Assembly: GCA_037157565.1 (NCBI GenBank)
Contig: JAZHRO010000012.1
Location: forward strand, 10,566,501 to 10,630,500
Direction: 5' to 3'
Source: Thalassia testudinum
Lineage: Eukaryota; Streptophyta; Magnoliopsida; Alismatales; Hydrocharitaceae
DNA length: 64,000 nucleotides
Numbering within the stretch: position 1 is the first letter of the stretch; each line of letters opens with the position of its first letter. The position numbers and the translations under genes were made by a program. The notes under the pieces were generated by a model. That model did no database searches. It worked only from the letters and a program-made list of their open reading frames with translations, and had not been told where the DNA came from. Shown here in pieces: positions 2,687 through 60,627 of the stretch.

Positions 2687-5253
2687 TATTGTTAGTGAAA
2701 ATCGTTGTTTTAGGAATGTATAGCATTGTAGTACAAGACAAAAATTGCAACGACACTTAAAATTTATAAACTCGAAAACATGAGTTCGAGGTCGTTTGTA
2801 GGCCCAAATTGGCAAATTCAATCACTAATCGTAATTAATAACGATGAGCACAATAAGATATTCAATGAATAAGAGAAATTTACTCAAAATGATGTTCAAT
2901 AATATCAAATGTATCTTAAGAAATAATGGGAAAAAAAGAATATAAAGAACTATAAAAATGGTGATTTGAATCACCAATTAATCTCCCACATTAAGCACAT
3001 ATCCCAATGAAATCAATCAACTCAAATATTGCAATAGTGGCCTCAACCACTTATTCTCAAATTCCATATCAGCACAGGAGCCAAATAAGTCCACAATATC
3101 TCAATCAAGGCCAAGTCAGATGTCGACCACAACATCCAAACGACTTAAGCATCAAGCCAAATAGTGTAGGCACCAGCACAGAGTTAGCCTCTCAAATCCT
3201 CGCTAATTGTTGAGCACATAGGCATGCATCCCGATGTGAAAAGCCTACCCCTACCCTCCTGAGAAATTCGTAATCAGGCTTGTAATCGAGTAATTGGATC
3301 CTAATCGGGTCCAGATCAGCGGGTAATGGTCATGGGTGAGGAGTGAGAGAGAGTGCAGTACGCAGACCTCACCCTCGGTGAAGAGGTGATAAGCCACTGA
3401 GACAAAATCAACTTATATGCTGTGAAGGCTATGAAAACCCACGATGTGGGACTTTTTCTTTAGCCTTTCTTCACTGCATAGCTGCAAATGAAATACAAGC
3501 AATGGAGGCTATTGCGGTTGGGTGCTTGCTCCATTGGAGGTTGGGGAAGTCACCTAGGGGTAGCCTGCGTTGATTGGGAGTGGTAGCATGGTTGGAGGAG
3601 GGCAATTAGCGGCAAAGTGATGGCCGGCAATGACTCAAAAAGATGAGATACGAGCTATTCGCCCCAATTAGAATGCTCAGCAGCTTCGCCAAGTGGTGGT
3701 GAAGGTGATGGTGGTGTTCTCATGGTGCGCCGTGAAGTGTAGAGGTCTGTCGATGTCGGTAATGGCATATGGGGGGTGGGTTGTTCGGAGGGGTGAAGGA
3801 GTGGATGGAAGGTGAAATTTTGTGAGGGGTTTTGGTGAGTGAGATGAGGTAGAACTTTTGGTGGTGACGCGAGGCATTTCGTGGAGTGTAGTGACCGGAG
3901 GCAACGCCGGCCGTGGAGAAGACAAAAGGGAAGGAGGTGATTTGGCAGTCGAATTAGGAAGATAAGAGGTTAGGGAGACACTAGAGAGAGAGGGAAAGGG
4001 AGAGCTTATCTATGGACAAAGGGAGGGAGGATTCGGTGTCAGCTATGATTGGCCAGCATCAGAGAAGGTGAATACTTCGAAGATGAGGACACCGAGGAGG
4101 AAGGGGTCGAGGTAGCCTTGGTTTTGGCCCATCAGGCACGGATGAAGTCGGGGAAGATGCTTCCTTTTCCTATTTTACGTGGAAGAGGGTGAAAAAGGGG
4201 AATTGAGGAGCTCGATGGAGATGCGGTGGAGTTGGACGGAGAGAGAAGGAAGAAGATTTAGGGGCCAGACCGGACTAGGGAGTATGTTAGGACCTTCAGG
4301 AGCTTTTATAGAGCTCAAAATCGAGCATTAATTCAGGAAAGAAGCTCAATTAGGTTGAGATTTGGGAACAAGAAACCCCACAATTTTCATGGGTTCGCTG
4401 GGGCTTTATACAACGAATTAGGAGCCAAGATGGAGCTTAATTAATTCCTTGCAATATGAACACCAATCCCACCAAATTTAGTGGGATTTGGTGTTGATTT
4501 GTTAAGGTTTTTAGTCAGTCAAAGTAGGTGTTTAGGTTGGTTGACCTAACAATGGTAGCAAGGGTGTTTTTGCGAAGATGACAGCAAAGTTAGGGACCTA
4601 TTCGCATGAAATTTTGAAAGCTAAGGGTTTGAGTGTAGAAAATAGAGGTTTTAAGGATTGAAGTGCAAACTAGGTCAAGATGACTTTGATTGGGCTCAAA
4701 TTTTGGTGTTAAACTAATTTGGACTCAAGGAATTTGATGGTGAACTTATATTTGAGTTTTGACCATGTTTGAATGGGAAATTTGCACATAAGCCCAAATT
4801 AGGGTAAAATCCCGACTAAAACTCTATTTTAGGTCAAAATAGGTTCAGATGGTCAAACCAAGGGTACCAAACCTCTTAGAATATTTTTTTATGAATTTTA
4901 GGAGGTTTAGATGAATTTTATCCTGATCAGAACCTCTTTAATTTAGGTAGGTTAATAATCAGGGTTTTATGCTCTAATTTGGTTTTCGAAACACGTGAAA
5001 CCCTGTTGCTGTCAATGTTGACCCACTTGTTGGCCTTTAGGGATCATTTGACCTCTAATTAACCCTTGGTTGACCTCATGGTTACTCTGTAATCATTATG
5101 TATGTTAAAACTACAAATTTAACCATGTTTTATTATTTTCTTCTCAAAATGGATTTGAGTGGAATTACTATCCTCAGATGACCATTTAGGAACTTTTATC
5201 ACTTGATTCCAACTAATTTAAGCTAGTTATGGCGAATGATGGTGTTACCATCA
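2687..5253 (-). mobile_element. Solo LTR, family A, minus strand, inside the pol relic
   Basis: A 2,567-bp LTR lies between direct repeats GTCTT at 2682-2686 and 5254-5258. Its own 5' end is at 5253 and opens with the palindrome TGATGGTAACACCATCA (5237-5253 on the complement). An upstream TATA box (minus TATAAAA, 4304-4310) and a second promoter-like pair at 3412-3452 are present. The U5 box is near 2787-2810. Between the left target duplication and the last TG/CA dinucleotide three extra bases (TAT, 2687-2689) remain. Long stretches match the LTRs at 25822-28428, 39328-41871, 42694-45296 and 52744-55410. Confidence 0.85.
3412..3452 (-). promoter_or_regulatory. snRNA-type USE plus TATA, 24-nt spacing (LTR-A)
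   Basis: On the minus strand GTCCCACATCG (3452-3442) exactly matches the upstream sequence element of plant snRNA genes, RTCCCACATCG. Exactly 24 bases later comes TATAAG (3417-3412). This spacing is the one reported for Pol III-type (U6-like) plant promoters; Pol II snRNA genes have about ten bases more. No run of T long enough to end Pol III transcription follows at once, so the polymerase is not settled. Confidence 0.6.
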
Positions 5254-5449
5254 GTCTTCATGGAGATCCTAAGGAGATTATCTCAAACAAAGTTCCAAAT
5301 TCACCTCACAATTGTTTAGAGGATATCCCTTAGGGACTCAATTGAGGTTCAATATAGGGTATCACCCTTAGATAGATGGACAATCCAAGGGTACCATTCA
5401 TATGTTGGAGGATCAACTATAGGACCATGTCCTAAGGTGGAAGGACTCG
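5254..5449 (+). pseudogene. Gypsy pol relic, piece 2: integrase core
   Basis: Continuation of the chromovirus-like integrase. The frame GTQLRFNIGYHP, one stop, then IDGQSKGTIHMLED matches the segment around the third catalytic residue of the DD35E core. The position normally held by Glu is Lys here, and the region of the second Asp reads Asn (IISNK), so the catalytic triad is lost. The piece ends at 5449 inside the target duplication ACTCG, and the protein frame continues at 14115 after the nested insertions (WKDS, then WDDYLPLVEF). Confidence 0.8.
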
Positions 5450-5712
5450 TGTTAATCGAGTTTTTAGGAGTTTAGTGTTTTGTGTTGTAGCAAAATCTCC
5501 TAAATAGCTTAATCAACAAATACAATTTATAACTTGAATATCTAAAATGAAGTCCGAGGTTTAACACAGGGAGCAAGTATTGCAATTCATGCGCTAATCA
5601 ATATGAATATATAAATGAGCATAGGAATTTAAGCACAATAATGATATTAAATGAATAACAGGTACTCAAATCTGATATTTGATGAGAGACTCATCATGAT
5701 CTCTAATTACCC

Positions 5713-5741
5713 CTAATTAACTAGTCTTCCTAGTTAATTAG
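5713..5741. repeat. Perfect 12-bp hairpin near the LTR-B start
   Basis: CTAATTAACTAG (5713-5724), a 5-base loop, then CTAGTTAATTAG (5730-5741). The arms are exact reverse complements. It lies 17 bases inside the terminal palindrome of the LTR, so the first 62 bases of this LTR hold two successive foldbacks. Confidence 0.8.
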
Positions 5742-7039: not shown

Positions 7040-7375
7040 CAAGTACTTGTAAGCAAGTACTGGTACTGTTCATCAGTACTGGTATTTGCAAGGCATAGGT
7101 TTGAGAATTCGTCTCAAATTGTGAACAACAAGTACCGGTACTAACCATGAGTATCGGTACAGGTTGGCCACAGGTTGAAGGCTTAATTCTGGCCAGAACC
7201 TTACAAGTACCGGTACCTATGATGAGTACCGGTTCGAGTAGGTTATTGTGCCCAAGGAATTCCAAACCTGGGAGTCACAAGTACCGGTACCCATGATGAG
7301 TACCGGTACCGGGACTCTTGTACTGGTGGCAGAGAGCTGCTAGTACCGGTATAGGTACTTTAGTACCAGTACCAG
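7040..7375 (+). repeat. Array of GTACCGGTAC palindromes in the copia LTR
   Basis: Variants of AGTACCGGTAC occur in pairs about 20-25 bases apart (CAAGTACCGGTACC...ATGATGAGTACCGGTAC), repeated around 7040-7085, 7130-7165, 7203-7235, 7270-7310 and 7340-7375. Each motif is self-complementary. The spacing between pairs is roughly 65-75 bases. They sit upstream of the TATA box at 7481, in U3, where enhancer repeats are usual. The 3' LTR keeps only the last few. Confidence 0.8.
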
Positions 7376-7480
7376 GTAGCTTTTGGCTCAAAACTGAACG
7401 GCTAGAAAATTAATTCCAACAATGTGAACGTTGGGAATTAAATCCCAACGTCTAGTAGACGAGTATCCTAGGTCCTAAAC

Positions 7481-7490
7481 TCTATAAAAT
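7481..7490 (+). promoter_or_regulatory. TATA box of the copia LTR
   Basis: TCTATAAAAT lies just downstream of a 9-bp hairpin and upstream of a purine-rich leader (ACAAGAGACACAAGAAAAG). The same box is at the matching place in the 3' LTR (about 9444-9453). It is the likely Pol II promoter that marks the U3/R border. Confidence 0.65.
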
Positions 7491-8071
7491 GACCTTAGGA
7501 CTCTTTGTTTACATACAAGAGACACAAGAAAAGAGAAGAGAAAATCCTAGAGCTAGAATTTCAAATTCCCACCATATTCACAAGAGAGAAAAAAGAAGCT
7601 TGCCATCCACGCTCATAGTATTCTTGCAAGCTCAACGATGCATTTTTTTTATGCATCTACGAAGTGAATCACGTTCTTTCTAGGCTGTCAACTCGGTAAT
7701 ATTATTCTCTATATTGTTGAGAGGCTTAGGAACTTAGTTGTAAGATTAGTTTTTCTTACACCTGTACTTCTTTTGTATTTAAGCATTTGCTCGTTGGGTT
7801 GTAACAAACCCGTTGTTGTACTTGGGTTGAGGTAACCTGTTAATTACCTCGGTTAGTAAATTGATTCTCTCGGGGTTGAGAGAATCAGGTTAAAAACCCT
7901 AAGCTGGGAGGCTTAGGTAGTGGAGTACCCAAGGAAGGGGAACCACTACACATATTATGCCAATTTCTGTGATTGTATTTTGTGCAAATTATTTTTGTTA
8001 TTACTAACATTTTGTGATTGTATTTTGTGCGTGTAGATAGCCATATATTACATATCTTTAGATCCTTCAAG

Positions 8072-11908: not shown

Positions 11909-11950
11909 GTCTCACATCGGATGTTGCTGAATGCGTGCATAGGTATAAAA
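11909..11950 (+). promoter_or_regulatory. snRNA-type USE plus TATA, 24-nt spacing (LTR-B)
   Basis: GTCTCACATCG (11909-11919) differs by one base from the plant snRNA upstream element. After exactly 24 bases comes TATAAAA (11944-11950). The LTR belongs to a different family from the other carriers in this window, yet the spacing is the same. Confidence 0.6.
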
Positions 11951-12019
11951 TGAATTTGTGAATAAGGCTCACCAGTCATCAAGCGCTCGGCGCGAATTGA
12001 ACATCTGATCATCTGAGCA

Positions 12020-12730: not shown

Positions 12731-14114
12731 GTTTAATTTCTTTAATTTATTTTTGTAAGAATTTGTTGTAATTGCTTTTAATTGTAATAAGGCATGTTTT
12801 GAATAGATACTTTTATTAGCCTTTAATCTTTTGAAATAAATAGATTTCAAAATGGGATTTTGCATGTTACTTCAAATTAAATCAATTTTTGCAAAATTTA
12901 TGTTTCTATAATTAACTTAACTATACCTCCTAAACTTATAAGAAAAATAAAGTTAATTAGTGAATTTAAAATGAATTATACCTCCTTGCGAACGACTTGG
13001 ACTCAACTAGTTAAAAAAATTTTAAAATGTTAGGTTAATTCGACCCTATACTACTAAATGACACAATTTTGAGTTAACCTAAGTTACTTTTCTCTACTCA
13101 TAATTAAGTAAAATTAACTTAATTATCTGAGTTGAGGTGAGAAACGAACAATTTTCAATGAAAAACATGAGTATTTCAAGAGTTTAAGAGGACAAAAGGA
13201 TATTTAAGATAAAATAATAGCAATTTGGATCACCAATTATTAGCCTAAACACATATATATCAATTACTTAAACATATGAAATAAATGAACAATGGCCTGA
13301 ACCACTTAAACTTCAATATGTCCATAGTGTCAGAACCTTGCTTTAGCCAATCAGATGTTGCCTTCTCAATATCAGATGACTTAAACGTCACCTTCACAGT
13401 ACAACACAAGGCTCATCGTAGTAAGCATGCACGACTGCTCATGCATTCACGATGTGGGACTAAGTCCCCATCCTTTTGCTCGTGCGTAGCTGTAGGGAAG
13501 ACTTCCTTCAATTTGAGTAGCAAACGAGGTCGAGGTCTTCAATTGACAACCTGGGAGGCTTCAGGACCTCGGACCGCATTGATCTAGAGCTGCAGCAGGT
13601 TGCTTCGACGCCTGGAGGTGAAGAACACATGGGAGAAGATGGTGGCAGCTATCCGGTGAAGCACCTAAAACACGAAAATGACCTTGTGACCTTGTCAAAA
13701 TGGGTTCTAATGGTCAAATCAAGGATACCAACGCTTATAGAATATTTTTCTATAATTTTTAGAAGGTTTAGGTGAATTTGCTCCTGACCAGAACCTCAGT
13801 TATTTATGCGGGTCTGAAATTAGGGTTTCGGATGTCCATTAATTCTTGAAATGGGTAAAAACCCGTTTCTTTTTGCATGGACCCTCTTATTAGACATTTA
13901 TGAACATTTGACCTTTAATTAACCCCTGGGAAAACCCATGGTTGTTCTGCATTTAGGTTATACTATTAAAATTGAAATTTTAACCCTGGTTTAATGCATT
14001 TCTCTCAGAATGAATATGCAGTGAGTTATGGTTCTTTGGCGGTTATGTAGGAGGATTTGTCTATTGATTATGACTAGTTAAAGTTAGTTATAGCAGATGA
14101 TGATGTTATCATCA

Positions 14115-25821: not shown

Positions 25822-28428
25822 TGTTGCATTGAAAATCATCATATTTAGAAAACGCATTGTAGTATAATGACGAAAATTGATACAACATTTAAATTTGTAA
25901 TATCGAAAATAAGAAATGAGTTTGAGGTTGTTCGTAGGGAGCAATTGTAAGCAAATCAATCACTAATGACAATTATTGAGAATAATAATACCAGTGAATC
26001 AAAAAGATATGAAATGTATGTCAGAAAATGTATCTCAAAATGTGGATATCAAAGTGCAAAAAGATTAGGCTAAAAATAGTTGTTTGAACTACCAATTTTA
26101 ACCCTAAATTCTAAGCTCTAATTAACTCAAATAATTCAACAGTAACCACAATCAACGATCTCAGTAATATCAGAACCAAGCACAACACCAAAGTAACTAA
26201 TCAAATGATAGAACCAAGGCATAGACGCCTTATCTCAAGCCTTAGAGGTGCTAAGGCAACACAGTAGCACGGAGGCACAAGGGCCTGACAAGCCTAGCAC
26301 GGAGGCACAAGGGCCTGACAAGCCTTAGAATAGCTAAGTATTGATCGAGGGGGAGGGCACGATTCCCGAGGCCAAAGTGCGAAACCACCCCCAGATTTCT
26401 CTTCTCTTTCTAGCCAGATAAACAAGTATGTAGAGTATCGGGTAAACGGATCTGGCCCAGACCTGCATGGCATGAACCGCAGGCGAGGGCATGTGCAAGA
26501 GCGTGTTATTACATGCATGGGGGCGTGTGAGGGACCTCACCCCTGTGTGTTCGGAGGCGAAGAGCAGTTGTGATGATTTGCTCTTATGTGCTGTCGTAGG
26601 GTCTCCCACACATGATGTGGGACTTTGTTTCCTTCTTCTTTGCCTGCTTCAGCAGGGAATGGCTTCATTGATTGAGGCTATTGTGATCGCTATGTTACTC
26701 AATTAAAGATGCACAAAGCTTTGTTAGGGTGAGCGGCAGCTCTTGAGGGCAGCAGCTGGGTGAGTGATGGCTGGAGTAGCATTGTCGTGGTCGAAGAAGA
26801 CAGTAGTGGCAACGGCGAATCGACGAAAACCTGAAGAGGGAAAATACGACCTCATGGCCCAATTAAATATGCTCACGAGCTTCGCCGTACGATGGTGAGT
26901 ACAATGGTGGTGGTTGAAGGGCGTGCAGCAGTCGGAAGAGGCCTAACAGTGACGGAGAAGATAACTAGAGGAGGTTGTTTTCAGTGGGGTGTAGGAGAGT
27001 ACAAAGCCATAACTTTCTTAAGGGATTTTACTTAGTGTGACTTGGCGGAGGTTGTGGAGGTGATGGAGTGGTGTTTGGTGGTCAGTGGCGGTTGAGCAAA
27101 CTTGCCGGAATTTCACCGGTCGTAGGGAAGACGGTGGTGGAATGGTGCAATGAGTGTTCGATCCTAAGGTCTAAGTGAGTGGAATTGAAGTAGAGAGGGA
27201 GAAGAAGAGATTAGAGGGACTTAGGAGGTGAGACAAAGAGGGATTAGTGCCAGTGTTAGTTGGCCGACGTTGAAGAAGATGAGGTCGACGGTGAAGGAGT
27301 GGCGAGGAAGGAGAGGTCGGAGGCAATCGATCTTTGGCCAGACTCGATCGTGAAGAAGAGGTGAAGAAGATGAGCCAGTCAATTTGACCGTTGGCTGACT
27401 CGATGAAGTGGTTAGAGGAGGCTCACCGGAGCCGAAGTCGCGGAGGCTGGAGAAGGAGAGAAGATGGTATATTCAACTCAAACTTGGCTGAGGAGGATGG
27501 CGAAGTCTCGAGGGCTCTTTATAGAGCTCTAAAATGAGCTCAAAAGCAAGGAAAGAGATACAATAGCCATGCGATTTCAAGGAAAAAATCCCCTAAAATC
27601 TTGCACTTCGCCTAAGCTCTAGGGATCTTTGTGGAGTTTCTATGTCGGTTCGACTGATCAGGGAGGTTCTTACAATCAATCCCTTCAATCTTGGAGGGAT
27701 TTGGCTTTGATTGGAGGGAGGAATCCTCCCTCGAATCTCGGTTGCAAAGCTTTCACACCTTCAATGGTGACAGGGACCCAAATGCAATAAACTTGAAACC
27801 TGAGGGACTAAATGTAAGAAATAAAGTGTTTTAAGGGCTAAAATGCAAACTAGATCAAGATGGACTCTGATTAGGCCCAAATTTTGGTGATAACCTAATT
27901 TGGACCCAAGGAATCTAATTGTAAACTTGGATTTTCGTTTGATCACATTTGAGTGGGCAATTTGCACAAAAGCCTAAATTAGGGTAAATTTCCATTTGAA
28001 ACTCTGTTCTAGGTTAAAATGGGTTCAAATGGTCAAACCAAGGGTACCGAACCTCTTAGAATATTTTTCTATGAATTTTAGAGGGTTTAGACTAATTTTA
28101 TCCTGACTGAAACCTCTTTAATTTAAGTAGGTTGATAATTATGATTTTTAGTGTTGTTTTCGCCCTCAAAATACGTGAAACCCCATTTCTTTTAGTGTTG
28201 ACCCAGTTTTTAGACTTTTGTGCTTATTTGACCTTCAATTGACTCTTGAATGACCCCGTGGTTAATCTGTGTTTGTGATGTATTAAAATTACAGAATTAA
28301 CCTTGATTCCCTATCTTCTCAAATCAGAATGATGTGGAGTTGTGGCCCTCAGATGATTAGGTAGGAGCTTTTATCAATCAGAACTAACTAAATGTGGCTA
28401 GTTAGGACCCATGATGGTGTTGCCATCA
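25822..28428 (-). repeat. 3' LTR of element 1 (family A)
   Basis: Runs from TGATGGCAACACCATCA at 28428 (minus) to the terminal CA at 25822. It carries TATAAA at 27523-27518, a second USE/TATA pair at 26583-26623 and the U5 box near 25925-25945. A 30-bp unit (TAGCACGGAGGCACAAGGGC...) is duplicated in tandem at 26265-26294 and 26295-26324; the 5' LTR has only one copy. It is collinear with 39328-41871. Confidence 0.9.
26583..26623 (-). promoter_or_regulatory. snRNA-type USE plus TATA-like box, 24-nt spacing
   Basis: On the minus strand GTCCCACATCA (26623-26613) is one base off the plant snRNA upstream element. It is followed after 24 bases by CATAAG (26588-26583). The matching pair in the 5' LTR of the same element is at 40080-40070 (GTCCCACATTG) and 40045-40040 (CATAAA), again 24 bases apart. 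Confidence 0.55.
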
Positions 28429-36028: not shown

Positions 36029-38766
36029 TGATGGGAACACCATCATAAGCCTTAACTAACTCATTTTGATCCAATGAAGTCAATAAATGCTCCTATATAA
36101 CCAACTAAAGGTCATAATTCATTGCATAACCATTCTGAGAGAAAAATAAGAAATTAAGGATAAAACTGCAATTTTACTAGCTTATCATGAATGCAGTACA
36201 ACCGTGGGTTTTCTTAAGGGCTAAACAAAGGTCAAATGGTCTTAATAAGATAACAAGTGAGTTAGATCAGACAGAAAAGGGTTTGAGTGTGTTTTGTGAA
36301 TTAAATGACTTTTGAAACCCTAAAAACAGACTCACTTAATTAACCAAGGTTCTGGTTAGGATAAGATTCACCTAAACCCTCTAAAAATCATAGAAAAATA
36401 TTCTCTAGGGTTTAGTACCTTCAATTTGGCCATCAGAACCCATCTTGACCTAAAATGGAGTCTCAGAAAGATATTTGCCCTAAATTAGGTTTTTGCATAA
36501 ATTACCCATTCAAACGTGGTTAAAACCAAAATCCAACTTTACCATTGGATTACTTAGGTTCAAATTAGGTTTGTATCAAAATTTGGACCCAAGATGAGCT
36601 TGCTTTGACCTAATTTACAAAATGGTCTTGTCTGATTACATTTATACCCCTAACTTTCAAAAACCCTTACATTCAACCCCCTAACTTCTTCGTCATCTTC
36701 ATAATTAGGTCCCTCCACCATTATCATGGAGGAAACCTACTCCGGCGACCTTTGATAGGAGATTTCTCCTTGATTGCTTGGAGAATCTCTTCCAAACTTG
36801 GAAGGGAGATTCTCTGAGAAATTCTCTCCAATATGTACCCGTCCATATGCTTTGATTCTTTCCCAATCTCTCATGCGAACGCATGGGAGATTTGGGTATC
36901 TAAAAGCTCCCAAGTTCAACAACCTTCCAAGCTTTGGAAGCTTGCTTCCCAACCCCTAACCACCCCCTAGAGCCCATTATAAGGACCCTCAGAACTCACC
37001 GATCTCTTCACGCTCGAAATTGGCCGTGAAAACCCCACAATTCATCTCTCCCTCTCACGATCGAAGGCTCCTCTATGTCCGGTGATCCCCTCTGCTCTTT
37101 CTCATCATTCATCCGCCATACCTACGGCGGATTCCTCCTACTTCTCCGTGTCTCGCCGTACCAGCAGACGCTCAATCCCCTTCATCCTCACCGTCTCCAC
37201 CTCACCAGAGCCGCCTTCGTCTCCGGCATCGGTCACACCACACCCGGTGCCATCGCTGCCCCACTTCGTCCATCAACCTCCTAGCTCTGTCCCCTATCCC
37301 CTCTACTTTATTCCCTGCTCTTTATCTTCCAAATCCGACCACCGACAACCCTTCGCAACTCCATCATCTCCATCTCCGACCATCCCCTCCAGCGAGCCCA
37401 TCCCACCTCCACAGGCCACCAAAACCCTCGCTGACCATCGCAAAACCTTCACCACACATCCCTGATCATTTCCCCTCTTTTCATTCACCTCACCATCCAC
37501 TCACATGCATCCCCGAACACACCCACTCACCTGCACACAATTTGACCTAGCCACGCATTCACAACCACTGCGGTCCACGCCACCACCTCCATCAAGTTCG
37601 TCGTGCTCCGGTGATACTCCCTAAATGTTCTGACGTAGCTGAGAGGCCGTTCCACTATTTTCAGGTACACTCCCTATCTGCCATTAACGAGTAAGCTTCA
37701 AGCTTGCTTGAAGGTCGCTCCAGGTCTTGCTACGCCCAGGTTGAAGTCCCAGGTTGCACGGAAGAGCCTTGCACACAATCCCAGGTCCTCAATTGAAGAC
37801 ATGAGCCTTAGTAGCTATTGCAATTGAAAGGGAATCCTCTACTGTAGACGTGCGAAGGAGGGGGGTGAGGATAGTTCCACATCGGGAAGTTCTGAAGCCG
37901 CGCACCCGCATAAGTTGATTTTGTGACAGCAGCTGTTTGCCTCAAGTTCACGGAGTGAGGCTCGTCTCACTTGCTCACCCAGCCTCATCCATGACACCTA
38001 CCTGCGAACCTGGTCGACCTGATTACCCGCCTGACCTGCACTCCTCGCTCACTGCCGCGAGTGGGTGAGCCTGGACCTGGGTACTTGCCTGATCCGATAA
38101 CCCGAATGCCCTGTGGCTCTAGGAGAGAGGATCCTAAGAGAGAAAAAAAGAGGAGAGTAGTGCGGGTAGGGGGAGGGTTTTGCTGCAGGGACCTTCGACT
38201 GACACTTAGTCGAATTCTGAAGAGGAAAGCCAGAGAAGAAGAAGAGGAGGCCTGAAGCTGAAGAAGAAGAGAAAGTAGCTAAGGGCCAAAGAAGAAGAGA
38301 ACTAAAGGCAGAGGAAGAAGAAGAAGGCTTGGAGAGGTCGTAGCTGAGAAAGAAGAGAAAGAAGAAGAGGCAGGTCTGAAGGAAGAGCTGAAGAGGAAAG
38401 GAAGAATCAGAGAAAGCAAAGAAAGAGAGGAAGCAGAAGAAAGGAAGAATCAGAGAAAGAGAAGAAAAGAAGAAGAAGACAATAGAATTAGCTCTCATTT
38501 CATACATTTACATTAAGTTCTTTAGTTGATATTGTAGGAGTATTTGGTGATCTAAATCACCATTTTACTCCCATCTTTTTGCACAATGCTACTGATATTA
38601 TTGCAAATTCTTTTAGTTTGAATTGTGACCTTGATTTCTAATTCCCATATTGCTCCCTGTGTTCAACCTCAGAACTTTTTCGAGTAATAAAAATTGTATT
38701 TCTTTTCAAAGAGATTTCGACTATATTACAATGCTTTATTTTAAATCGATCTCACAACAATAAACA
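36029..38766 (+). mobile_element. Solo LTR, family A, plus strand, in the leader of element 1
   Basis: A 2,738-bp unit between GTTTG at 36024-36028 and 38767-38771. It starts TGATGGGAACACCATCA and ends ATAAACA. Promoter-like features: an upstream TATAAG near 36979 and a USE/TATA pair at 37874-37914. A GA-rich tract lies at 38110-38480 and the U5 box at about 38651-38682. Frames such as the 127-residue Ser/Pro-rich one at 37082-37465 match no family I know. Confidence 0.9.
37874..37914 (+). promoter_or_regulatory. snRNA-type USE plus TATA-like box, 24-nt spacing
   Basis: GTTCCACATCG (37874-37884), one base off the plant snRNA element, then 24 bases, then CATAAG (37909-37914). A GCCTC/GAGGC hairpin begins 31 bases after the start of the TATA-like box. 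Confidence 0.55.
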
Positions 38767-39306: not shown

Positions 39307-39324
39307 TCCCCAGCAACGGCACCA
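39307..39324 (-). other. Primer-binding site of element 1, tRNA-Asp type
   Basis: On the minus strand TGGTGCCGTTGCTGGGGA, three bases after the LTR end. It differs at two positions from the tRNA-Asp primer site usual in Athila/Tat elements. It fixes element direction and the 39328 LTR edge. Confidence 0.85.
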
Positions 39325-39327
39325 AAA

Positions 39328-41871
39328 TGTTGCATCGAAAATCATTGTATTTAGGAAAACAATTGTAGTATAGTGACTAAAATCGATACAACATTTAAAT
39401 TTGTAATATCGAAAATAAAAAATGAGTCTAAGGTCATTCGCAGGGAGCAATTGTAAACAAATCAATCACTAATCACAATTATTGAGAATAATAATACTAG
39501 TGAATAAAAAGGATATGCAATATATGTTAGAAAATGTTTCTCAGAATGTGGATATGTGCAAAAAGATTGGGCTAAAAATAGTGATTTGAACTACCAATTT
39601 TAACCCTAAATTCTAAGCTCTAATTAATCAAATAATTCAACAGTAACTGCAGTCAACGATCTCAGTAATATCAGAACCAAGCATAGCACCAAACTAACCA
39701 ATCAAATGACAGAACCAAGGCACAGATGCCTTATCTCAAGCCTTACACAACATCATGAAGGCACAAGGGCCTCATAAGCCTCAGAATGGCTAAGTATTGA
39801 GCAAGGGGGAGGGCATGATTCCTGAGGCCACAATGCAAAACCACCCAACAAATTTCTCTTCTCTTTCTAGTCGGATAAATAGGTATGCACAGTATCAGGT
39901 AAATGGATCCGGACCAAACTCGCGTGGTGTGAACCGCGGGCAAGGGCATGTGCTATTGCGTGTTAGCGTGTGCGTGGGGCCGTGCGAGGGACCTCGCCCC
40001 TGTGCATTCAGAGGAAAAGAGCAATTGTGATGATTTGCTTTTATGTGTCGTCGTAGGGCCTCCCACATACAATGTGGGACTTTGTTTCCTTCTTCATCGC
40101 ATGCTTTAGAAGGGAAGGGCTTCATTGATTGAGGTTGCTGCGATCCCTGTGTTGCTCAATTGAAGACGCACAAAGCTTCATTAGGGTGAGCTGCAGCTCT
40201 TGAGGGCTGTAGCTGGGTGAGTGATGGCTGGAGTAGTGCTATCGTGGTTGGAGAAGATAGTGGTGGCAACAACGAATAGGCGAAGACCTGAAGAGGGAAA
40301 ATACGGCCTCACGACCCGATTAAATATGCTCATGACCTTTGCTGGATGATGGTGAGTAAAGTGGTGGTGGCTAAAGGGCGTTTAGTGGTCAGAGGAGGCC
40401 TGACGGTGACGGAGAAGATGACTGGAGGAGGTTGTGTTCGGTGGGGTGTAGGAAAGTGCAAAGCCCAAAATTTCTTGAGGGCTTTCAGTCAGTGTGACTC
40501 GACGGAGGTTGTGGAGTTGGAGTGGTGTTTGGTGGTCTGTGGTGACTGAGCGAACTCATCGGAGTTTCGTTGGCCATAGGGAAGATAGTGGCGGAATGGT
40601 GTGATGAGTGTTTGATCCTAAGGTCTAAGTGAGTGGAATTGAAGTAGAGAGGGAGAGGAAGAGATTAGAGGGACTTAGAAGGTGAGATGGATGAGGTCGA
40701 CGGCGAGGGAGTAGCAAGGAAGGAGAGGTTAGAGGCAACCAGTCTTTGGCTGGACTCGGTCGTGAAGAAGAGGCGAAGAAGATGAGCCGATCAATTTGAC
40801 CGTTGGCTGGCTCGAAGAAGTGATCGGAGGAGGCTCACTAGAGCCGAAGTTGCGAAGGTCGGAGGAGAGGAGATGGTATTTCCAGCTCAAACTTGGTTGA
40901 GGAGGATGGTGAAGCCTCAAGGGCTCTTTATAGAGCTCTAAAACGAGCTCAAAAGCAAGGAAAGAGCTAGAATAGTCGCGCGATTTTAGGGAAAAAATAC
41001 CCTAAAATCTTGCACTTTGCCTGAGCTCTAGGGATCTTTGTGGGTTTTCTAAGTCAGTTCGATTGATTGGGGAAGTTCTTGTAATCAATCCCTCCAATTT
41101 TGGAGGGATTTGGCTTTGATTTGAGGGAGGAATCCTCCCTCGAATCTCAGCTGCAGAGATTTCACACCTTCAATGGCAGCAGGGACCCAAGTGAAGAAAA
41201 TGATGAAAAAGTTAGGTACCCAAACGTAATAAACTTGAAACTTGAGGGGCTAAATGTAAGAAATAGAGTTTTTTAAGGGCTAAAATGCAAACTAGGTCAA
41301 GGTAGACTCTGATTAGGCCCAAATTTTGGTGCTAACTTAATTTGGACATAAGGAATCTAATGGTGAACTTGGATTTGATTTTTGACCATGTTTTACCATA
41401 CGATTTGCACAGAACCCAAATTAGGGTAAATTTTCGTTTGAAACTATGTTATGGATCAAATGGGTTCAGATGGTCAAACCAAGGGTAGAAAACCTCTTAG
41501 AATACTTTTCTATGAATTTTAGGTGGTTTAGATTAATTTTATCTTATCCAGAACCTCTTTAAATTAAGTAGGTTGTTAATTAGGGTTTTTGGTGCTGTTT
41601 TCACCCTTGAAATTCGTAAAACCCCATTTCTATCAGTGTTGACCCACTTTTTAGACTTTTGTCATATATGACCTTCAATTGACCCTTGAATGATCCTACA
41701 GTTAATTTGTGCTTGTGATGTGATGTTAAAATTACAGAATTAACCCTAATTCCCTATCTTCTCAAATCAGAATGATGTAGAGTTGTGGTCCTCAGATGAT
41801 TAGGTGGCAGCTTTTATCAATTAGACCTAACTAAATGTGGCTTGTTATGGTCCATGATGGTGTTACCATCA
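39328..41871 (-). repeat. 5' LTR of element 1 (family A)
   Basis: Runs from TGATGGTAACACCATCA at 41871 to CA at 39328. It has TATAAA at 40932-40927 and a USE/TATA pair at 40040-40080. The U5 box, read on the plus strand as GGTCATTCGCAGGGAGC, is near 39432. It is collinear with the 3' LTR at 25822-28428, with many point changes and indels, so the insertion is not young. Confidence 0.9.
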
Positions 41872-42693: not shown

Positions 42694-45296
42694 TTTTGAC
42701 GTGAAATTGTCAATGTTAAGATATGTATACGTTGTAGTATAATAAACGAAAATGCGACAAACACTTAAACTTATAAAGCTCGAAAATAATGTGAGTCCAA
42801 GGTCATTTGTAGGGAGCAAATGGAATTCACACACTAATCACATTTAGAAATAATGAACACAATAATATAGATTTGCAATAGAAATCAATAATCAAAATAT
42901 ATTCAGTAATAGCCCAACTTGTGTTTCAGGAAATGATAGAACAAAAAGAATAGAAAGAACTATAAAAAGTGGTGATTTAGATCACCAACTAATCCTTCCA
43001 ATTTAAGCATACATCCCAAGCATATCAATTTAATCAAATAACTCAACAGTGTCTTTAAACCACTAATCTCAAATAGCCACGCCAGAGGAGATATCAAACA
43101 TCCTTACAGTACCAAACCAGACGTCCTCAAAGTTCCACAGATGACTTAAATATCACCAAGGCACAGAGCCTCAACAAGGTTCATAAGGGTGCCAAGCACA
43201 TCACAAAGAGTCTCAAGGCAAAGCCTCAAGGACACTAAGTGTTGAGAACATCAACACGTAGCAAAACCTTCCCCCCTCCTCCTCACAATTTCTCCTCTTC
43301 TCTCGGAACCAGATAATCGAGTCATTAAGTGGGTAATCGGATCCAGGTATTGGGTCCAGGCTCCGTGCATGTGTACACAGGCAAGGAGTGAGAGCGTGAG
43401 GAGGCATGTGCGAAGGGGGACCTCACCCCCCATGTTACTGAGGCAATGAAGCTATGTGAGAATTTGGCTTTATGTGCCTCAGCGAGTTTATGGCTTTCCG
43501 GAGTGGGACTACCCACTTTATTCCTTCACATGCAGCAACGTCAAAGGTCTCTCTTTGATTGGCATGCTGCTGCGAGGGAGCACTCCAGACGATTCCACAT
43601 TGATTGCAAGTGTTTTGAAGTGGAATGGTGGCTGGAAAGGGGTGAAAATTGTCGGAGAAGATGGTAGTGGCGACGTCGATCTGGTGAAGACCTGCGAGGA
43701 GAAATATGGCCTAAACACCCCAGTTAAAACATTCATGAGTGTTGCCGGAGCATGGCAGGTGTGATGATGGGGTTTATTTGGTGAATGGTAGCGTGTGGTA
43801 AGCGGCCAAGGTCGAAGATGATGACGGTGAGGTGCAGCACTCGGTGGAGGTGTATGGTGGATGAATGCCTCAATAAAGAGAGGGCTTTTATTCGGGTGAA
43901 TGTGGCGAAGGTCGTGGAGGTGGCAGTGAGGTGAAAGATGGTGTGTGGTGGTCGGATGACCATGCTAGAGGTGTGGTCGACCTTGGAGAAGACGGAGGGG
44001 GAGAGTAATGATTGTCCATCAAATTGGGATGTAGAAGATCCTAATCTAAACTAGGGAGAGAGAGAGAAAGTGAAGGAACCTAATTATGGATGATGGGGAG
44101 GGAGATCCACATCGACTTTGATTGGCCGATGTCGAAGGGGACGAAATCTTCGGTGGGCGAAGTGGCGAAGATGAGAGGGTCTGGGAGCACCTTGCTAGTA
44201 TTGCAAGGAGTGAACGGAGAGGAGGAAGCAGGTGCCTCCAATTTGTCCATTGGAGGCCTTGACGAGAGAGATCACCAAAGTTAGTGGAGTTTGTGGCTGG
44301 AGAGAAAGAAGAGGGGGTTTTTCGACCTAGAAACGATTAAGGAGAATAGCTGAGCGTAGGGAAGCTTATATAGAGCTTCAGGATGAGCTTTGAATGAGGA
44401 AAGGAGCTTGATTGATTCGTGGATTTTAGGGAAAATTTTCCCCAAAATCCTTGAGCTCTCCTGAGCTCTAGGATTAATTCCATTCCCTCAAATGGGCTTG
44501 GTTGGACTCCTGATTGTCTGATCATTAATCCCTCTAATTTTGGAGGGATTTGGAGTTGAATCGAGAGAGATCTCCTCTCTTGAAGGTCGGTGCCCTTGGG
44601 TTCACACCTGCCATGGTGGAAGGGACCCATTTGCAAATGTGACGACAAAGTTAGGGACCTATGTGTAAGAGATTTCAAAAGTTGGGGTTCTGATTGTAGA
44701 AAATAGAGTTTTAAGGCGTTAGATTGTAAACTAGGTAAAGATGAACATTGATTGGGCCCAAATTTTGGTACAAGCCTAATTTTGACCCAAGGAATATGAT
44801 GTTAAAGTTGGATTTGAGTTTTGACCATGTTTGACTAAGCAATTTGCACAGAAGCCCAAATTAGGGTAAAATCCCGTCTGGAACACTGTTCAAGGTCAAA
44901 GTGGTTTCAGATGGTCAAACCAAGGGTATCAAACCTCTCAAGATATTTTTCTATGAATTTTATCCTGACCAAAACCTCTTCAATTCAAGTAGGTCTAAAA
45001 TTAGGGTTTTATGTTTTGATTTGGTTCTCGAAACGTGTGAAACCTCGTTTCTGTCTATATGGACGCACATTTTGGACTTTAATGCTCATTTGACCTTTAA
45101 TTAATCCCTGGGAAATCCCATGGTTACTCTACATTCATGATATGATGTTAAAACTATAGAATTATCCCTGTTTTAGTGTTTTCTCCTCAGAATGGATTTG
45201 CATGAAATTATTGTCTTCAGGCGATTATGTAGGAGCATTTGTCACTTGATTTTGGTTAATTAAAGCTAGTTATGGCTAATGATGGTGTTACCATCA
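42694..45296 (-). repeat. 3' LTR of element 2 (family A)
   Basis: From TGATGGTAACACCATCA at 45296 down to 42697 (CA), with three further bases TTT before the target duplication. TATATAAG is at 44372-44365; the second promoter pair is at 43469-43509 (GTCCCACTCCG, 24 bases, CATAAA). Confidence 0.9.
43469..43509 (-). promoter_or_regulatory. Degenerate USE plus TATA-like box, 24-nt spacing
   Basis: GTCCCACTCCG (43509-43499) has two changes from the plant snRNA element and is followed after 24 bases by CATAAA (43474-43469). The 5' LTR of the same element keeps a better copy: ATCCCACATCT at 53557-53547, 24 bases, CATAAA at 53522-53517. A CCTCA/TGAGG hairpin lies at 43421-43443. Confidence 0.5.
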
Positions 45297-47548: not shown

Positions 47549-50213
47549 TGATGATAACGCCATCATCAGCCATATCTAGCTTTAATTAGTCATCAATTGA
47601 TAAATGCTCCTACATAACCGCCAAAGAGCCGTAATTCACTACATATCCTTTCTAAGGATTAAAAGTAAAATAAGGGTAAATCTGTAGTTTTAACATAATA
47701 TCCTAAATGCAGAACAATCACAGGGTTTTCCATGGGCATATTAAAGGTCAAATGTTCATAAATGTCTAATAAGTAGGTTCGTGCATAAAGAAATGAGTTT
47801 TCATGCATTTCAAGAATTAATGGATATTTGAAACCCTAAAAACAGACTTGCTTAATTAACTGAGGTTCTAGTCAGGATAAAATTCACCTAAACCTTCTAA
47901 AAATCATAGAAAAATATTCCTTAAGGTTTGGTACCTTTGATTTGATTTAGAACCTATTTTGACTTAAAACAGTCTCAGATAGATAATTGCCCTAATTTGG
48001 GTTTTTGCATGAATTACTCAATCAAACTTGGTCAAAAACTAAATCCAACTTCACCATTAGATTCCTTGGGTCCAAATTAAGTTTGTACCAAAATTTGAGC
48101 CCAATCAGAGATCATGTTGATCTAGTTTGCATTCCAACCCTAGTTTAATTCTTTTTCTTACACAGATCCCCTAACTTTTGAAATCTTTGTAAGGAACCTC
48201 CTAATCTCATCATCTTCTTCACCAAACGATGTCCACCACCTCCATACCTATAGAACTCCTAAACCTACCTTGCACCGACCTTCAATTAGGAAGAGCTCCC
48301 TGATTTCATGGCCAATTCCTTCCAAAATTGGAAGGAAGGATCTTGAGACCTTCCTCTTTCATATGATTACAATCTCGAACTTAGATTTGAGTTGAGATGC
48401 CCATGAGAACTCCTTGAATTCGTGGGTCCTATTCCATGATTTTCAAGCTTTCAAGCTTGAAGCTCAACCTAATGGCCTATAGAAGACCCCCGTGCTCAAC
48501 CATACATCCTTAGCTTGTTTTTGGCTGAAAAACCTACTTCTTCCCTCCTCTCTAGCCGAATGCTCCACGAGCTCTAGCGACCTTCTCCGACCACCTTCCT
48601 CGTCCACCCTCACAGATCAAAGTGGGTGGATTCCTCTTCCTCGACTTCTTCCGTACGTCGCAATACCAATGGCCGTTGCCTACGCCTCTTCGTCATCGCT
48701 GCTCCTATCACCGGAGATTTCATCTTCCCCATGTCCGGCATACCATAGACGTGGGAATCCTCTCCTTCATCCATTAGATTTAGTGTTAGTTAGGTTCCTT
48801 TAGATTATTAGGTTAATTTCCACAACTCAAAACCCAAAAATTAGCCCTCGACGTCGTCACCAACCACCTTCATCTCTACCTTCGGCCACAACTCCGGTGA
48901 GGTTTTCTGCTCACCACACATGTCTAACGACCTCACCAACACCATCACAACCTCCGTCGTGCCCCCATGACCAAAAGCCCTAACTTTATTGGGCTTCTCA
49001 ACCTCCCAAACCACCCATTGAACAACCCCACATTCTCCGGCCTTCTTCGCATCCGCCACACCGACATACACTCTCTTGTAGCATGCCACCACCACCAACA
49101 CTCTTGGCACACCCTTGCGAAGCTTCTAAGCAAGTTTGACGCGGCCATGAGGCCTTCTTTTGTGTTTCAGGTACAGGACCTTCGACTGCCATTGATGAAG
49201 CTTCACATGACCTTGAAGCAGATGTTATTCTCAAGCAACCCCAAGTGCCATCTCTAAGTAGTGAGGAATCAACATCTCCAGGCTCCCAAGTCCTCAATTG
49301 GGAGAAAGGGGCACAACTGCGACTACAATTTGCGATGACACCTTCAGTAGCTGCGCAAATAGAAGCCTTGTCGATTTAAGTCCCACATCATTCATGGATA
49401 AGTCGTTGAGCATGCATAAGTTGATTGTCTCACATGGCCTTATCACCTCCAAACACATGGGGTGAGGTCCCTTCACCCGCACTCGACCCGACCCGCCTAA
49501 CCTATACACTCCTCGCTCATCACCACCCCTGGTGAGCCTCGACCCGGTTACTGTTCAACCCGAATACCCGATTAAGACTGGTTATCTAAGGAAGAGGAAA
49601 GCGAGGAAGAAAAGGAAAGAGAGAGAGAGAGAGAGTGGGGGAGGGGAGGGTTTTGCACCTATGTGCATTGTGAGACACTTAGTCGCTAGGAAGGAAAGAT
49701 GAGAAGAGGAAGAAGCTTTGAAGAAGGGCAAAAGGAAAGACAAGGCTGAAGACTCGAGCAGAAGAGAAGAAGAAGAATAGCAGAGAAAGCTTTGAAGGCA
49801 CTGTAGCAAGTGACAATTAATTCGTATGATTACCAAATCAGATGTCTGATCACTGTTCATTTATTTAAAACATTTGAGTAATTGATGTGTGCTTAACGAA
49901 GGCTAATAATTAGTGATCTAAATCACCATTATTTTTTGCTTTTCTATTCTTTTTGTCTTGAAATACATTGAGTATCATTAAATATTTGATGTGATAGATT
50001 AGTATTCATTGAATATCATTATTGTGCTTAATTTTTTGTGCTCATTTATATATTCATTTTGATTAGCACATGGATGCAATACTTGCTCCTTGTGTTCAAC
50101 CTCGGACTTCTTTTAGATATTCAAGTTATAAATTTTATTTGTTGAGAGATCTATTTAGGAGACTTTACTACAACCAGACACACTTAAAACTCCTATCTAG
50201 TTCCCCATCAACA
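47549..50213 (+). mobile_element. Solo LTR, family A, plus strand, inside element 2
   Basis: A 2,665-bp unit between TGGAC at 47544-47548 and 50214-50218. It starts TGATGATAACGCCATCA and ends CATCAACA. A TATAG-type box is near 48479, the USE/TATA pair at 49380-49420, a GA-rich tract at 49580-49790, and the U5 box (GCTCCTTGTGTTCAACCTCGG) near 50085-50107. The host acidic ORF of element 2 resumes on both sides. Small frames such as 48492-48803 are not supported as genes. Confidence 0.9.
49380..49420 (+). promoter_or_regulatory. snRNA-type USE plus TATA-like box, 24-nt spacing
   Basis: GTCCCACATCA (49380-49390), 24 bases, CATAAG (49415-49420). An ACCTC/GAGGT hairpin starts 31 bases after the start of the TATA-like box. 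Confidence 0.55.
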
Positions 50214-51602: not shown

Positions 51603-51639
51603 ATTGAATTGATCAGATCAAATTAGAAATCCCCAAGAA

Positions 51640-52743
51640 GATCAACTCTAATGAGGCCTCTAGGTCAACAACCTAGGGACCTTTCCTGTGTATGTGCTCT
51701 AAAGAATAGATGAGGGACTGGATATGAATTGGACCCAATTAAGGCACCAAAAAATCTCTGGATGACTAAGGCTATTTCAAGGCAGATGCTACCTTTGAAT
51801 AAAATATTCACACACTCGAGAATTACATGGACAACCAGGAAGGGAGAACCCTGCAAAGACCCCTACACGGTAGAGGATCCCCACGGGTTATAGGGTTTCC
51901 TTATCACTACAGTTCCAAGTAGACCAGAATGTGCAAATTGCGACTTTAAGTCTACCAATTTTAGTCCTAATTTGTGCCTTGAATTTCACTTGATTAGAAA
52001 TTGATTCAATTTGTGACCTAATTTGAAGGTTGGTTGGCCCACAAGGTGGACCAACTTCACTTGATCTGTCCTAAAGATGGAGGATGAAATTTGGGTCATG
52101 ATCCAAAATTACCCTGAATTGACTCTCAGGTTATTAGGCCAAAAAATTTTAGGGTTCAAGTGCGTTTAGAGGTTTGCTTGAATAGATCTTTTCAACCAAG
52201 GGCTTGGGTGGCACACAAATGCGGGAAGGTTAATTTCCTTTTAATGCATGCAAGTGTGTCTAGCACTTCAAAACACTAAAATGGAAATCATAATTAGCTC
52301 TATTTCAAGTCCAATTTAATCTCAAATGTGGCACCTTGGACTCAAACAAGAAAGTAAGTACTCCAAGATGTTGAGAATTTAAGCGTAAATCCCTAGTAGG
52401 TATAGGAAATCAAGATAGGGGCCTCTAAACAAAATCATCTCAACTTCAATCAGATATCAAATCAATTTTGCAAATCAGGAAGTTTTGCCTTTAAATGATA
52501 ATTACTAGAAAAGTAAGGCAAGTGGATATTAATTGTTTGTTTCCTTTTTCTCTTTCCCAGATTAGGAGGTTGATTAGGGAAGAAGAGAGACTTTACCTAC
52601 CCTGGAGTGGTTGATTGAGTTGAAGATCTTCTCATATTGTACCTCACAAAATCACAGCAAAACAGATAGGGCAAGTTAGCAGTAGGCTCAATCAAATAAG
52701 ATACGACTAGTGATGAATTGCGCGTTGCTTCCTGGCAATAGCT
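51640..52743 (-). other. Leader and decayed primer site of element 2
   Basis: Collinear with the leader of element 1. The primer site remnant at 52723-52742 reads CGTTGCTTCCTGGCAATAGC on the plus strand, where element 1 has CGTTGCTCCCCAGCAACGGC. The last bases next to the LTR are missing. Confidence 0.7.
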
Positions 52744-55410
52744 TGACGTGAAATCATCGATGTTAAGATATGTATGCATCGTAGTATAGTCAACAAAAAC
52801 GTGATAAACACTTAAATTTATAAATCTCTAAAACAATGTGAGTCCAAGGTCGTTTGTAGGGAGCAAATGGAATTCACGCACTAATCACATCCAGAAATAA
52901 TGTGCATAATAATACAGATATGCAATAGAAATCAATAATCAGAATACATTCAGTAATAGCCCAAATTGTGTTTTAGGAAATGATAGAACAAAAAGAATAG
53001 AAAGAACTATAAAAAGTGGTGATTTAGATCACCAACTAATTTTTCCAATTTAAGCATACATCCCAAGCATATGAATTTAATCAAATAACTCAATAGTGTC
53101 TTTAAACCACTAATCTCAAATGGCCACACCAGAGCAAATATCAAATATCCTTACAGTACCAAACCAGACGTCCTCAAAGTTTCATAGACAACTTAGATAT
53201 CACCAAGGCACAGAGCCTCAGCAAGGTGCACAAGGGTGTCAAGCACAGCACAAAGAGTCTCAAGGCAAAGCCTCAAGGACACTAAGTGTTGGGAACTTCA
53301 GCACATAGCAAAACCTTCCCCCCTCCTCCTCATAATTTCTCCTCTTCTCTCAGAACCAGATAATCGGCTCATTAGGTAGGTAATCAGATCCAGGCATTGG
53401 GTCTAGACCCGCATGCATGTGTACACAGGCGAGGAGTGAGAGCGTGAGGAGGCACGTGTGAAGGGGGACCTCACCCCTCATGTTACTGAGGCAATGAAGC
53501 TATGTGAGAATTTGGCTTTATGTGCCTCAGCAAGTTTGTGGCTTTCAGATGTGGGATTATCCCACTTTGTTCCTTCACATGCAGCAACGTCAAAGGGCAC
53601 ACCTTGATTGGCTTGCTATTGCTTTACTTCTCAATTGCTGCTGCAAGGGAGCACTCCAGACAATTCCGCGTTGATTGCAAGTGTTCTGAAGTGGAATGGT
53701 GGCTGGCAAGGGGTGAACGTTGTTGGAGAAGACCGCAGCGGTGACGTCGATCCAGCGAAGACATGTGAGGAGAAATATGGGCTAAATTCCCTAGTTAAAA
53801 CATTCATGAGCATCACCGGAGCACGACAGGTGTGATGATGGGGTTTATTCGGTGAATGTCAACGTGTGGTGAGAGGTTGAGGTCGGAGATAATGACAATG
53901 AGGTGTGGCATTCGGTGGAGGTGTATGGTGTATGAATTCCTCAATAAAGAGAGGGCTTTTGTTTGGGTGAATGTGGTGAAGGTCATGGAGGTGGCAGCGA
54001 GGTGAAAGATGGTGTGTGGTGGTTGGATGACCACGCTGGAGGCATGGGTAGCCGTGGAGAAGACGGAGGGGGAGAGTAGTGATTGTTGGTCGAATTGGGA
54101 CATAGAAGATCCTAATCTAAACTAGGGAGAGAGAGAGAGAGAGAGAAAGTGTGTGAAGGAACCTAATTATGGATGATGGGGAGGGAGATCCGCACCGGCT
54201 TTGATTGGCCACGCCGTAGGGGACGAAATCTCTGGTGGGCGAAGCGATCGACGACAATGAGAGGGTCTGGAAGTGCCTTGCTGGTATTGCAAGTAGCGTA
54301 CGAAGGAGAGGAGGAAGGAGTAGCCTCCAATTTATCCGTTGGAGGCCCTGACCAGAGAGATCGAGGAGATCACCAGAGTCGGTGGAGTTCGTGGTTGGAG
54401 AGAAGGGAAGAGGGGGTTTTCCGACCTAGAAACGACTAAGGAGAATGGCCCAACATAGGGAAGCTTATATAGAGCTTCAGGACGAGCTTTGAATAAGGAA
54501 AGGAGCTTGATTGATTCACAGATTTTGGGGAAAAAATTCCCCAAAATCCTCAAGCTCGTCTGACCTCTAGGATCAATTCCAATCCCTCAAATGGGGTTGA
54601 TTGGATTCCTGATTGTCTGATCATAAATCCCTCCAATTTTGGAGGGATTTTGAGTCGAATCGAGAGAGATCTCCTCTCTTGAAGGTTGATGCCCTTGGGT
54701 TCACTCCTACCATGGTGGCAAGGACCCATTTACAAAGGTGATGACAAAGTTAGGGACCTATGTGTAAGAGATTTCAAAAGCTGGTGGTCTGACCGTAGAA
54801 AGTAGAGTTTTAAGGGGCTAGATTGGAAACTAGGTCAAGATGAACTCTAATTGGGCCTAAATTTTAGTACAAACCTAATTTGTACTCAAAAAATACGATG
54901 GTGAAGTTTGATTTGAGTTTTGGCCACATTTGACTAGGCAATTTATACAGAATCCCAAATTAGGATAAAATCCTGTCTGAGACTCTATTCAAGGTCAAAG
55001 TTGGTTCAAATGACCAAGGGTATCAAACCTCTCAGGATATTTTTCTGTGAATTTTAGGAGGTTTAGATGAATTTTATCCTGACCAGAACCTCTTCAATTC
55101 AAGTAGTTCTGAAATTAGGGTTTTGTGTTCTGATTTAGTTCTTAAAATACGTGAAACCCCGTTTCTGTCTATATGGACCCACATTTTGGACTTTAACGCT
55201 GATTTGACCTTTAATTAACCCCTGGAAAGTCCCTTGGTTACTCTCCATTCATGATATGATGTTAAAACTGTAGAATTATCCCTGTTTTAGTGTTTTCTCT
55301 TCAGAATGGATTTGCATGAAATTATGGTCGTCAGGCGATTATGTAGGAGCATTTGTCACTTGATTTTGACTAATTAAAGCTAGTTATGGCCAATGATGGT
55401 GTTACCACCA
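52744..55410 (-). repeat. 5' LTR of element 2 (family A)
   Basis: From TGGTGGTAACACCATCA at 55410 (one change from the family start) to CA at 52744. TATATAAG is at 54471-54464, and ATCCCACATCT with CATAAA at 53517-53557. It is collinear with 42694-45296. Confidence 0.9.
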
Positions 55411-60625: not shown

Positions 60626-60627
60626 AG

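Follow-up and report, generated by a model that had tools for sequence, protein, structure and literature searches.

Retrotransposons with long terminal repeats (LTRs) have mostly been described in plants as units read by RNA polymerase II (Pol II), with Cassandra as the stated exception read by RNA polymerase III (Pol III) (PMC12786077). In the U3 and U6 genes of plants, the distance between the upstream sequence element (USE) and the TATA box is shorter by one helical turn (PMC9845283), and this spacing is a major determinant of recognition by Pol III (PMC11961915). Here, we describe a USE-like word followed at 24 bases by a TATA-like box in LTRs of a 64,000-nucleotide stretch of the Thalassia testudinum genome (contig JAZHRO010000012.1; hereafter the window). 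We are close to certain that these LTRs carry a genuine promoter module of the small nuclear RNA (snRNA) type.

The USE-TATA module in the window

The module was defined as an 11-base USE-like word (RTCCCACATCG) and a TATA-like hexamer, with the gap counted as the bases between them. A position check recovered all eight pairs listed in the original prediction, with a gap of exactly 24 in each and a USE word within two mismatches of RTCCCACATCG; the pair proved much commoner genome-wide than had been reported there. The second box reads CATAA at six sites (CATAAR) and TATAA at two, and the spacing is identical in every window copy having both boxes.

On the minus strand, the LTR with its 5' end at 5253 contains an exact USE (GTCCCACATCG, 3442..3452) and the box TATAAG (3412..3417), with a predicted start (+1) at 3387. 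The minus-strand LTR with its 5' end at 28428 has the USE GTCCCACATCA (26613..26623) and CATAAG (26583..26588; +1 at 26558). Three further minus-strand copies carry CATAAA: the LTR with 5' end 41871 (USE GTCCCACATTG, 40070..40080; box 40040..40045; +1 at 40015), that with 5' end 45296 (USE-like GTCCCACTCCG, 43499..43509; box 43469..43474; +1 at 43444) and that with 5' end 55410 (USE ATCCCACATCT, 53547..53557; box 53517..53522; +1 at 53492). The plus strand holds two copies with CATAAG, in the LTRs with 5' ends at 36029 (USE GTTCCACATCG, 37874..37884; box 37909..37914; +1 at 37939) and 47549 (USE GTCCCACATCA, 49380..49390; box 49415..49420; +1 at 49445), and the family B copy, assigned to class B below, in an LTR that extends from 10420 or before to about 13150 (USE GTCTCACATCG, 11909..11919; TATAAA, 11944..11949; +1 at 11974, AGTCATC).

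USE-like words by themselves (at most two mismatches) occur 34 times in the window against 18.4 expected, a number reached in none of 100 shuffles. As this enrichment is only modest, it is the pair with its spacing that carries the argument. A shared start word and mutual similarity identified nine family A LTRs, about 2.5-2.7 kb long where they are not broken up; seven of them contain the module, 1,787-1,853 bases from the LTR start. Of the other two, the internally deleted minus-strand LTR with 5' end 14114 retains an exact USE (13450..13460) with CTTACT in place of the TATA box, and in the plus-strand LTR with 5' end 55903 no module can be recognised, the closest USE-like words there showing three mismatches. 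The latter LTR (55903-60627) is split by an insertion of about 2.1 kb.

A motif-free search of 11-base words across positions 650-2600 of the family A LTRs ranked GGGGTGAGGTC first and the USE word AGTCCCACATC next. The USE word ties on total mismatches with CCAAATCCCTC (near position 740, co-linear in six of seven copies) and with CCTTCCTCCTC, which is of low complexity and not co-linear. With the seven copies weighted as five lineages, column conservation was 0.91 for the USE and 0.92 for the TATA box, versus 0.54 for both the spacer and the 20 bases upstream; none of 100,000 permutations gave equally high conservation of the boxes. The motif pair is thus conserved above its flanks, in agreement with the proposed snRNA-type signature. 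The seven family A copies do, as had been assumed, descend from a common LTR ancestor. In contrast, the family B copy, put forward as the independent and stronger hint, is locally homologous to a family A LTR at the module (73% over 71 bases) and therefore does not constitute independent evidence.

Abundance, spacing and predicted start across the genome

In the host genome (4.26 Gb searched), the pattern GTCCCACATCG-N25-ATAAR, which corresponds to a gap of 24 to the six-base TATA box, has 27,087 exact matches, and its reversed control has none. When ATAAR was allowed 15-45 bases after GTCCCACATCG, 31,903 matches were obtained (reversed control, 12), so that the 30 other spacings combined account for 4,816 matches, versus 27,087 at a gap of 24. 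Viral contigs of IMG/VR, searched as a control for chance occurrence, gave no peak, with a gap of 24 in 2 of 80 among the matches listed; the USE in these contigs was dropped as a signal and serves as a control only.

Two LTR classes can be recognized at the predicted start, a purine 65 bases from the beginning of the USE (offset 65). Class A has RCCTC at this offset, followed by GGGGTGAGGTCC; class B has RGTCGTC at the same offset and includes the window family B copy at 11909. Exact genome copies of class B number 1,834, with the start word allowed over three positions, and among about 100 of the matches listed, inspected by eye, three were one base short and the others lay at offset 65. For class A, a spacing-blind sample was defined by an exact TCCCACATCG separated by 40-69 bases from the class A word, leaving TATA box and spacing unspecified. 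In 80 among the matches listed, the start word is at offset 65 in 79 and at 64 in one. An AT-only hexamer or CATAAA occupies offset 35 in 66 of these 79, and nine more (TATAAG, TTTAAG, TATAAC) deviate at the last base only. Reversed controls were likewise zero for the class B, class A anchor and USE plus class A word patterns.

A second sample consisted of 30 loci chosen by the primer binding site alone and was thus blind to the USE. GGGGTGAGGTCC was present with at most one mismatch in 14 of them, and all 14 have a USE within one mismatch, a TATA-like hexamer at a gap of 24 and GCCTY at offset 65. Where the primer binding site is exact, it is preceded by the USE at a distance of about 780-1000 bases. 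Modules are intact in six probable LTR pairs of 94.0-99.6% identity, which implies that the module belonged to elements moving recently on an evolutionary scale; three further locus pairs are alike over the whole fetched length and may be duplications.

Several of the genome-wide observations weigh against the module or limit the evidence for it. Inspection by eye of the first 100 of the 31,903 matches gave a gap of 24 in 86, 23 in three, 25 in six and other values in five; small shifts therefore occur and the spacing is not strictly fixed. A profile of 17 non-redundant class A sequences speaks for the module, with conservation of 0.96 in the USE, 0.52 in the spacer, 0.87 in the TATA box and 0.96 from +1 to +5, but the USE, ATAAR and GTGAGGT columns are inflated, because an exact USE with ATAAR was the criterion for rows L021-L050, and GTGAGGT that for all genome rows. 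This alignment is gap-free from the USE to +5, and gaps start directly beyond. Fifteen short class B stretches were hand-picked from rows chosen by USE, ATAAR and GTCGTC. An exact 10-base USE is found within the allowed distance of 8,766 of the 26,535 class A anchors, a count that covers exact matches only. Finally, the other 16 of the 30 loci chosen by primer binding site have no module within 1,500 bases upstream; L190 and L192 among them carry the class A word with two mismatches.

The similarity of the copies could be explained by a motif pair that is a passive relic, copied along with the LTRs through shared ancestry or arising by chance, and the common ancestor of the family A copies and the local homology of family B would fit such an origin. 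We consider this very improbable, as spacers have diverged to a mean pairwise identity of only about 49-56% while the USE, TATA box and start word remain in place, and as the reversed controls of the fixed-gap, class B, class A anchor and USE plus class A word patterns are zero. In our assessment of the sequences, a promoter module is supported mainly by how many diverged lineages keep a near-rigid geometry, and not by family B.

Some variants were observed alongside these copies. In a class A subfamily of seven loci (L172, L174, L180, L181, L185, L188 and L198), GTCCCACCTCG replaces GTCCCACATCG, and the TATA box is CATAAA in six and CTTAAA in L185. A different element (L035, G000:C1:1572851-1572899) combines a USE with CTATAAATAG at a gap of about 32, a spacing like that of Pol II snRNA genes. 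Identical USE-TATA stretches at G000:C1:6026980, 6079646, 6132315 and 6184975 recur at intervals of about 52.7 kb, pointing to a large tandem duplication.

Host gene geometry and the polymerase at the module

The snRNA and small nucleolar RNA (snoRNA) genes of the same genome provide a yardstick for the LTR module. Host U3 genes have the USE at -65 and a gap of 24 in five of the seven genes above the Rfam cut-off, four of the five coming from one cluster, with CATACA as AT box in four and TATATA in one; no USE was seen in the remaining two. At U6, the USE is found at -61 to -65 in five of eight loci fetched. The U1 genes differ: of the 13 that exceed the Rfam cut-off, 12 have the USE (at most three mismatches) at -75 or -76, and the gap, counted by hand on the promoters, is about 33-35 where an AT box is recognisable. 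Similarly, a USE was found in three of 12 U2 loci, where its positions are -75, -79 and -76 and the gaps, again counted by hand, are 32-33. The gap of 24 in the LTRs equals that of host U3, bearing out the proposed shorter, Pol III-type spacing, and does not match the U1/U2 layout (USE at -75 to -79, gap of about 32-35). As both the USE-TATA spacing and the start offset are those of host U3/U6 and unlike U1/U2, the LTR module has Pol III geometry, and on this sequence evidence Pol III is probably the polymerase that reads it.

In family A, the module is located 0.85-0.95 kb downstream of a separate conventional TATA box. An ordinary TATA box about 0.9 kb upstream had been proposed for each LTR; a TATA-like box is present at the corresponding place in six of the seven window family A LTRs, one of which has the weaker TTATAA, and the seventh is without it. 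Examples on the minus strand are TATAAA at 4305..4310 (LTR with 5' end 5253) and TATATA at 54466..54471 (LTR with 5' end 55410). The box CTATAAAA / CCTATAAAA was found in all six full class A LTRs fetched outside the window, with CCTATAAAA 900, 904, 903, 948, 900 and 901 bases before the USE, and the window class B LTR has CCTATAAAAG 1,075 bases upstream. Family A LTRs thus contain two promoter-like sites, a conventional TATA box and the snRNA-type module, as the original prediction had it.

Downstream of the predicted start, 35 of 38 class A sequences have a conserved GTTTT run that ends 169-252 bases past it, and in class B a run of four to six T residues (T4-T6) is located at +242 to +301 in 17 of 18 sequences, with three earlier T4 runs. 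Ahead of the conserved run, no T-runs were seen in class A against 3.8 expected (3 of 200 shuffles were as low), and three were seen in class B against 1.8 expected. Depletion is also seen for C runs, in both classes, and in class B for G runs as well.

Not all features of the module and its downstream sequence favor Pol III. The depletion of T-runs is not T-specific, and the terminator logic derived from it was therefore dropped. The TATA words of the LTRs (TATAAA, TTTAAA, CATAAR) are as similar to the CATAAG of host U1 as to U6. A U6-like 5' hairpin at the start, pairing RCCTC with GAGGY, was rejected, as the first base is unpaired in four of seven minimum-energy folds of family A and the alignment fold also does not choose this pairing. 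Likewise, a gene for a structured non-coding RNA of about 240 nt was considered and discarded, since single-sequence folding energies differ little from shuffled sequences in most of the 17 rows (lowest z -2.46). The alignment of about 240 nt does contain one helix with some double changes (whole-alignment z -3.5, 1 of 100 shuffles as low), and we do not find this convincing as conserved RNA structure. In the two copies searched, no known RNA reached the Rfam gathering score downstream, the sole hit there having an E-value of 0.88 on the opposite strand. Finally, 14 of the 18 class B sequences contain AATAAA at +131 to +192, as would suit a Pol II R region. T-runs suit Pol III and AATAAA suits Pol II, and the polymerase is therefore something that we infer.

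The AATAAA words would fit a module that serves the element as its U3/R promoter, at which Pol II would be recruited through the USE and TATA box at an unusual 24-base spacing and would start the full-length genomic RNA at offset 65, with R ending at a poly(A) site soon after. Such an arrangement would also fit the position of the USE ahead of the exact primer binding site, the U1-like TATA words and the general finding that Pol II reads most plant LTR elements (PMC12786077). On the other hand, the spacing and start offset are those of U3/U6 in this genome and not of U1/U2, a conserved conventional TATA box is already available upstream, and no AATAAA occurs between the start and +360 in the 38 class A sequences scanned, one of which has AATAAA at +365. 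Taken together, we regard a U3/R promoter as unlikely, though a serious contender.

The near-rigid spacing of the contact boxes around a spacer free in sequence, together with the little sign of selection on the downstream RNA fold, could also point to a protein-docking site, for SNAPc and TBP or for the Pol III machinery, that serves chromatin access, boundary formation or factor titration and yields little RNA. The start word is as conserved as the USE (0.96), which fits initiation better than docking alone, and we judge such a docking function improbable.

In the explanation that we moderately favor from the sequence data, the LTRs carry a conserved core promoter of U3/U6 geometry, which Pol III would read, beside a conventional Pol II TATA box. 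The layout consists of the USE, 24 bases, an AT box, another 24 bases and a predicted purine start 65 bases from the USE beginning. A plant SNAPc-like factor would bind the USE together with TBP, Pol III would initiate at offset 65 and would mostly terminate at the conserved run of four to six T residues, whose end is at about +165 to +300, and the product would be a short uncapped LTR RNA. The polyadenylated genomic RNA would be made from the upstream TATA box, making the LTR a dual-polymerase repeat. That a discrete short RNA is made from the module is, judging from the downstream sequence, a possibility that we put at slightly below even. We hold equally tentatively the broader proposal of an LTR retrotransposon superfamily with more than 27,000 exact copies in a single genome, in which each LTR would combine a complete U3/U6-class Pol III unit with a Pol II promoter and give rise to uncapped short RNAs.

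Element context and comparison with known systems

The window LTRs belong in part to recognisable elements. On the minus strand, the family A LTR at 39328..41871 is a 5' LTR with the primer binding site TTGGTGCCGTTGCTGGGGA next to it (39307..39325), and it is paired with the LTR at 25822..28428; between them is a Retrotrans_gag domain (PF03732, 34761..35153, minus strand). The LTR at 42696..45296 is paired with that at 52743..55410, both on the minus strand. With identities in the longest local alignment of 82% (LTRs 41871/28428) and 86% (LTRs 55410/45296), these pairs resemble the terminal repeats of old elements. The outer flanks of the 41871/28428 pair, GGTTG and GGCTG, were noted by eye as a possible target-site duplication. 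A further minus-strand family A LTR extends over 2695..5253, its 3' end being approximate. The gag domain, the LTR length of about 2.5 kb and the matching primer binding site agree with an Athila/Tat Ty3 element, the lineage to which this type of primer binding site is assigned. No pol gene was found among the 14 frames scanned in Pfam, a scan that was not a systematic pol search.

Other features of the window were also recorded. The words TTGGTGAT and AATCACCA, at LTR positions of about 2331-2372 (e.g. 26057-26098, minus strand), are conserved and could pair; they are located about 530 bases after the family A USE and are followed by a conserved T-rich stretch. A transposase-associated domain (PF13963, E 3.4e-21) at 24764-25294 on the plus strand, near the LTR end at 25822, indicates a DNA transposon remnant. 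A direct repeat of about 0.9 kb (7178-8071 and 9140-10036, 94% identity) flanks a zinc-knuckle gag-like frame (8706-9203) that runs slightly into the second copy. The plant snoRNA snoR71 is located at 62715-62821 (minus strand) with a score of 61.2 bits, which exceeds the Rfam gathering score.

If the favored explanation is correct, tens of thousands of large LTRs would have a start outside ordinary Pol II control and could be a source of uncapped RNA resembling that reported for BARE. They would also form a huge genomic reservoir of portable U3/U6-type promoters, able to titrate SNAPc, and such LTR promoters could seed new Pol III genes. The prediction is pinned to one base, offset 65 of intact copies.

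A literature search with little coverage of subscription journals did not turn up any account of plant LTRs carrying a USE, which is weak evidence of absence. The module shares with the Pol III-read U3/U6 promoters of plants the USE word, the 24-base gap, the AT box and the purine start at 65; in contrast to these, it resides in an LTR, with no known small RNA gene under its control, and by eye no similarity to the spacers of host genes was noticed. Like the LTRs described here, those of Cassandra, a terminal-repeat retrotransposon in miniature (TRIM), contain a host promoter of Pol III type (PMC10853983, PMC12786077). Cassandra elements are small and non-coding and have the internal promoter of a 5S rRNA gene, whereas the promoter described here is external and of snRNA type, in LTRs of about 2.5 kb and with gag in one element. 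An Rfam scan of the window gave no 5S rRNA match, only snoR71 reaching the gathering score. The barley copia element BARE has two LTR promoters, TATA1 and TATA2, one of which is reported to produce uncapped, non-polyadenylated RNA (PMC12786077). These are described as TATA boxes, and the accessible text mentions neither a USE nor Pol III geometry, in contrast to the USE module found here. The rice element Retrosat2 has an LTR of more than 3 kb, in which a TATA box is found close to the beginning and R is predicted to span about 2 kb (PMC3485330); unlike for the LTRs of the window, no snRNA-type element is mentioned in the part of that source available. Outside plants, the trypanosomatid Pr77 is likewise a retroelement promoter that binds TBP and SNAP50 (PMC8190864), and it differs from the module in being TATA-less, in belonging to non-LTR elements and in being read by Pol II.

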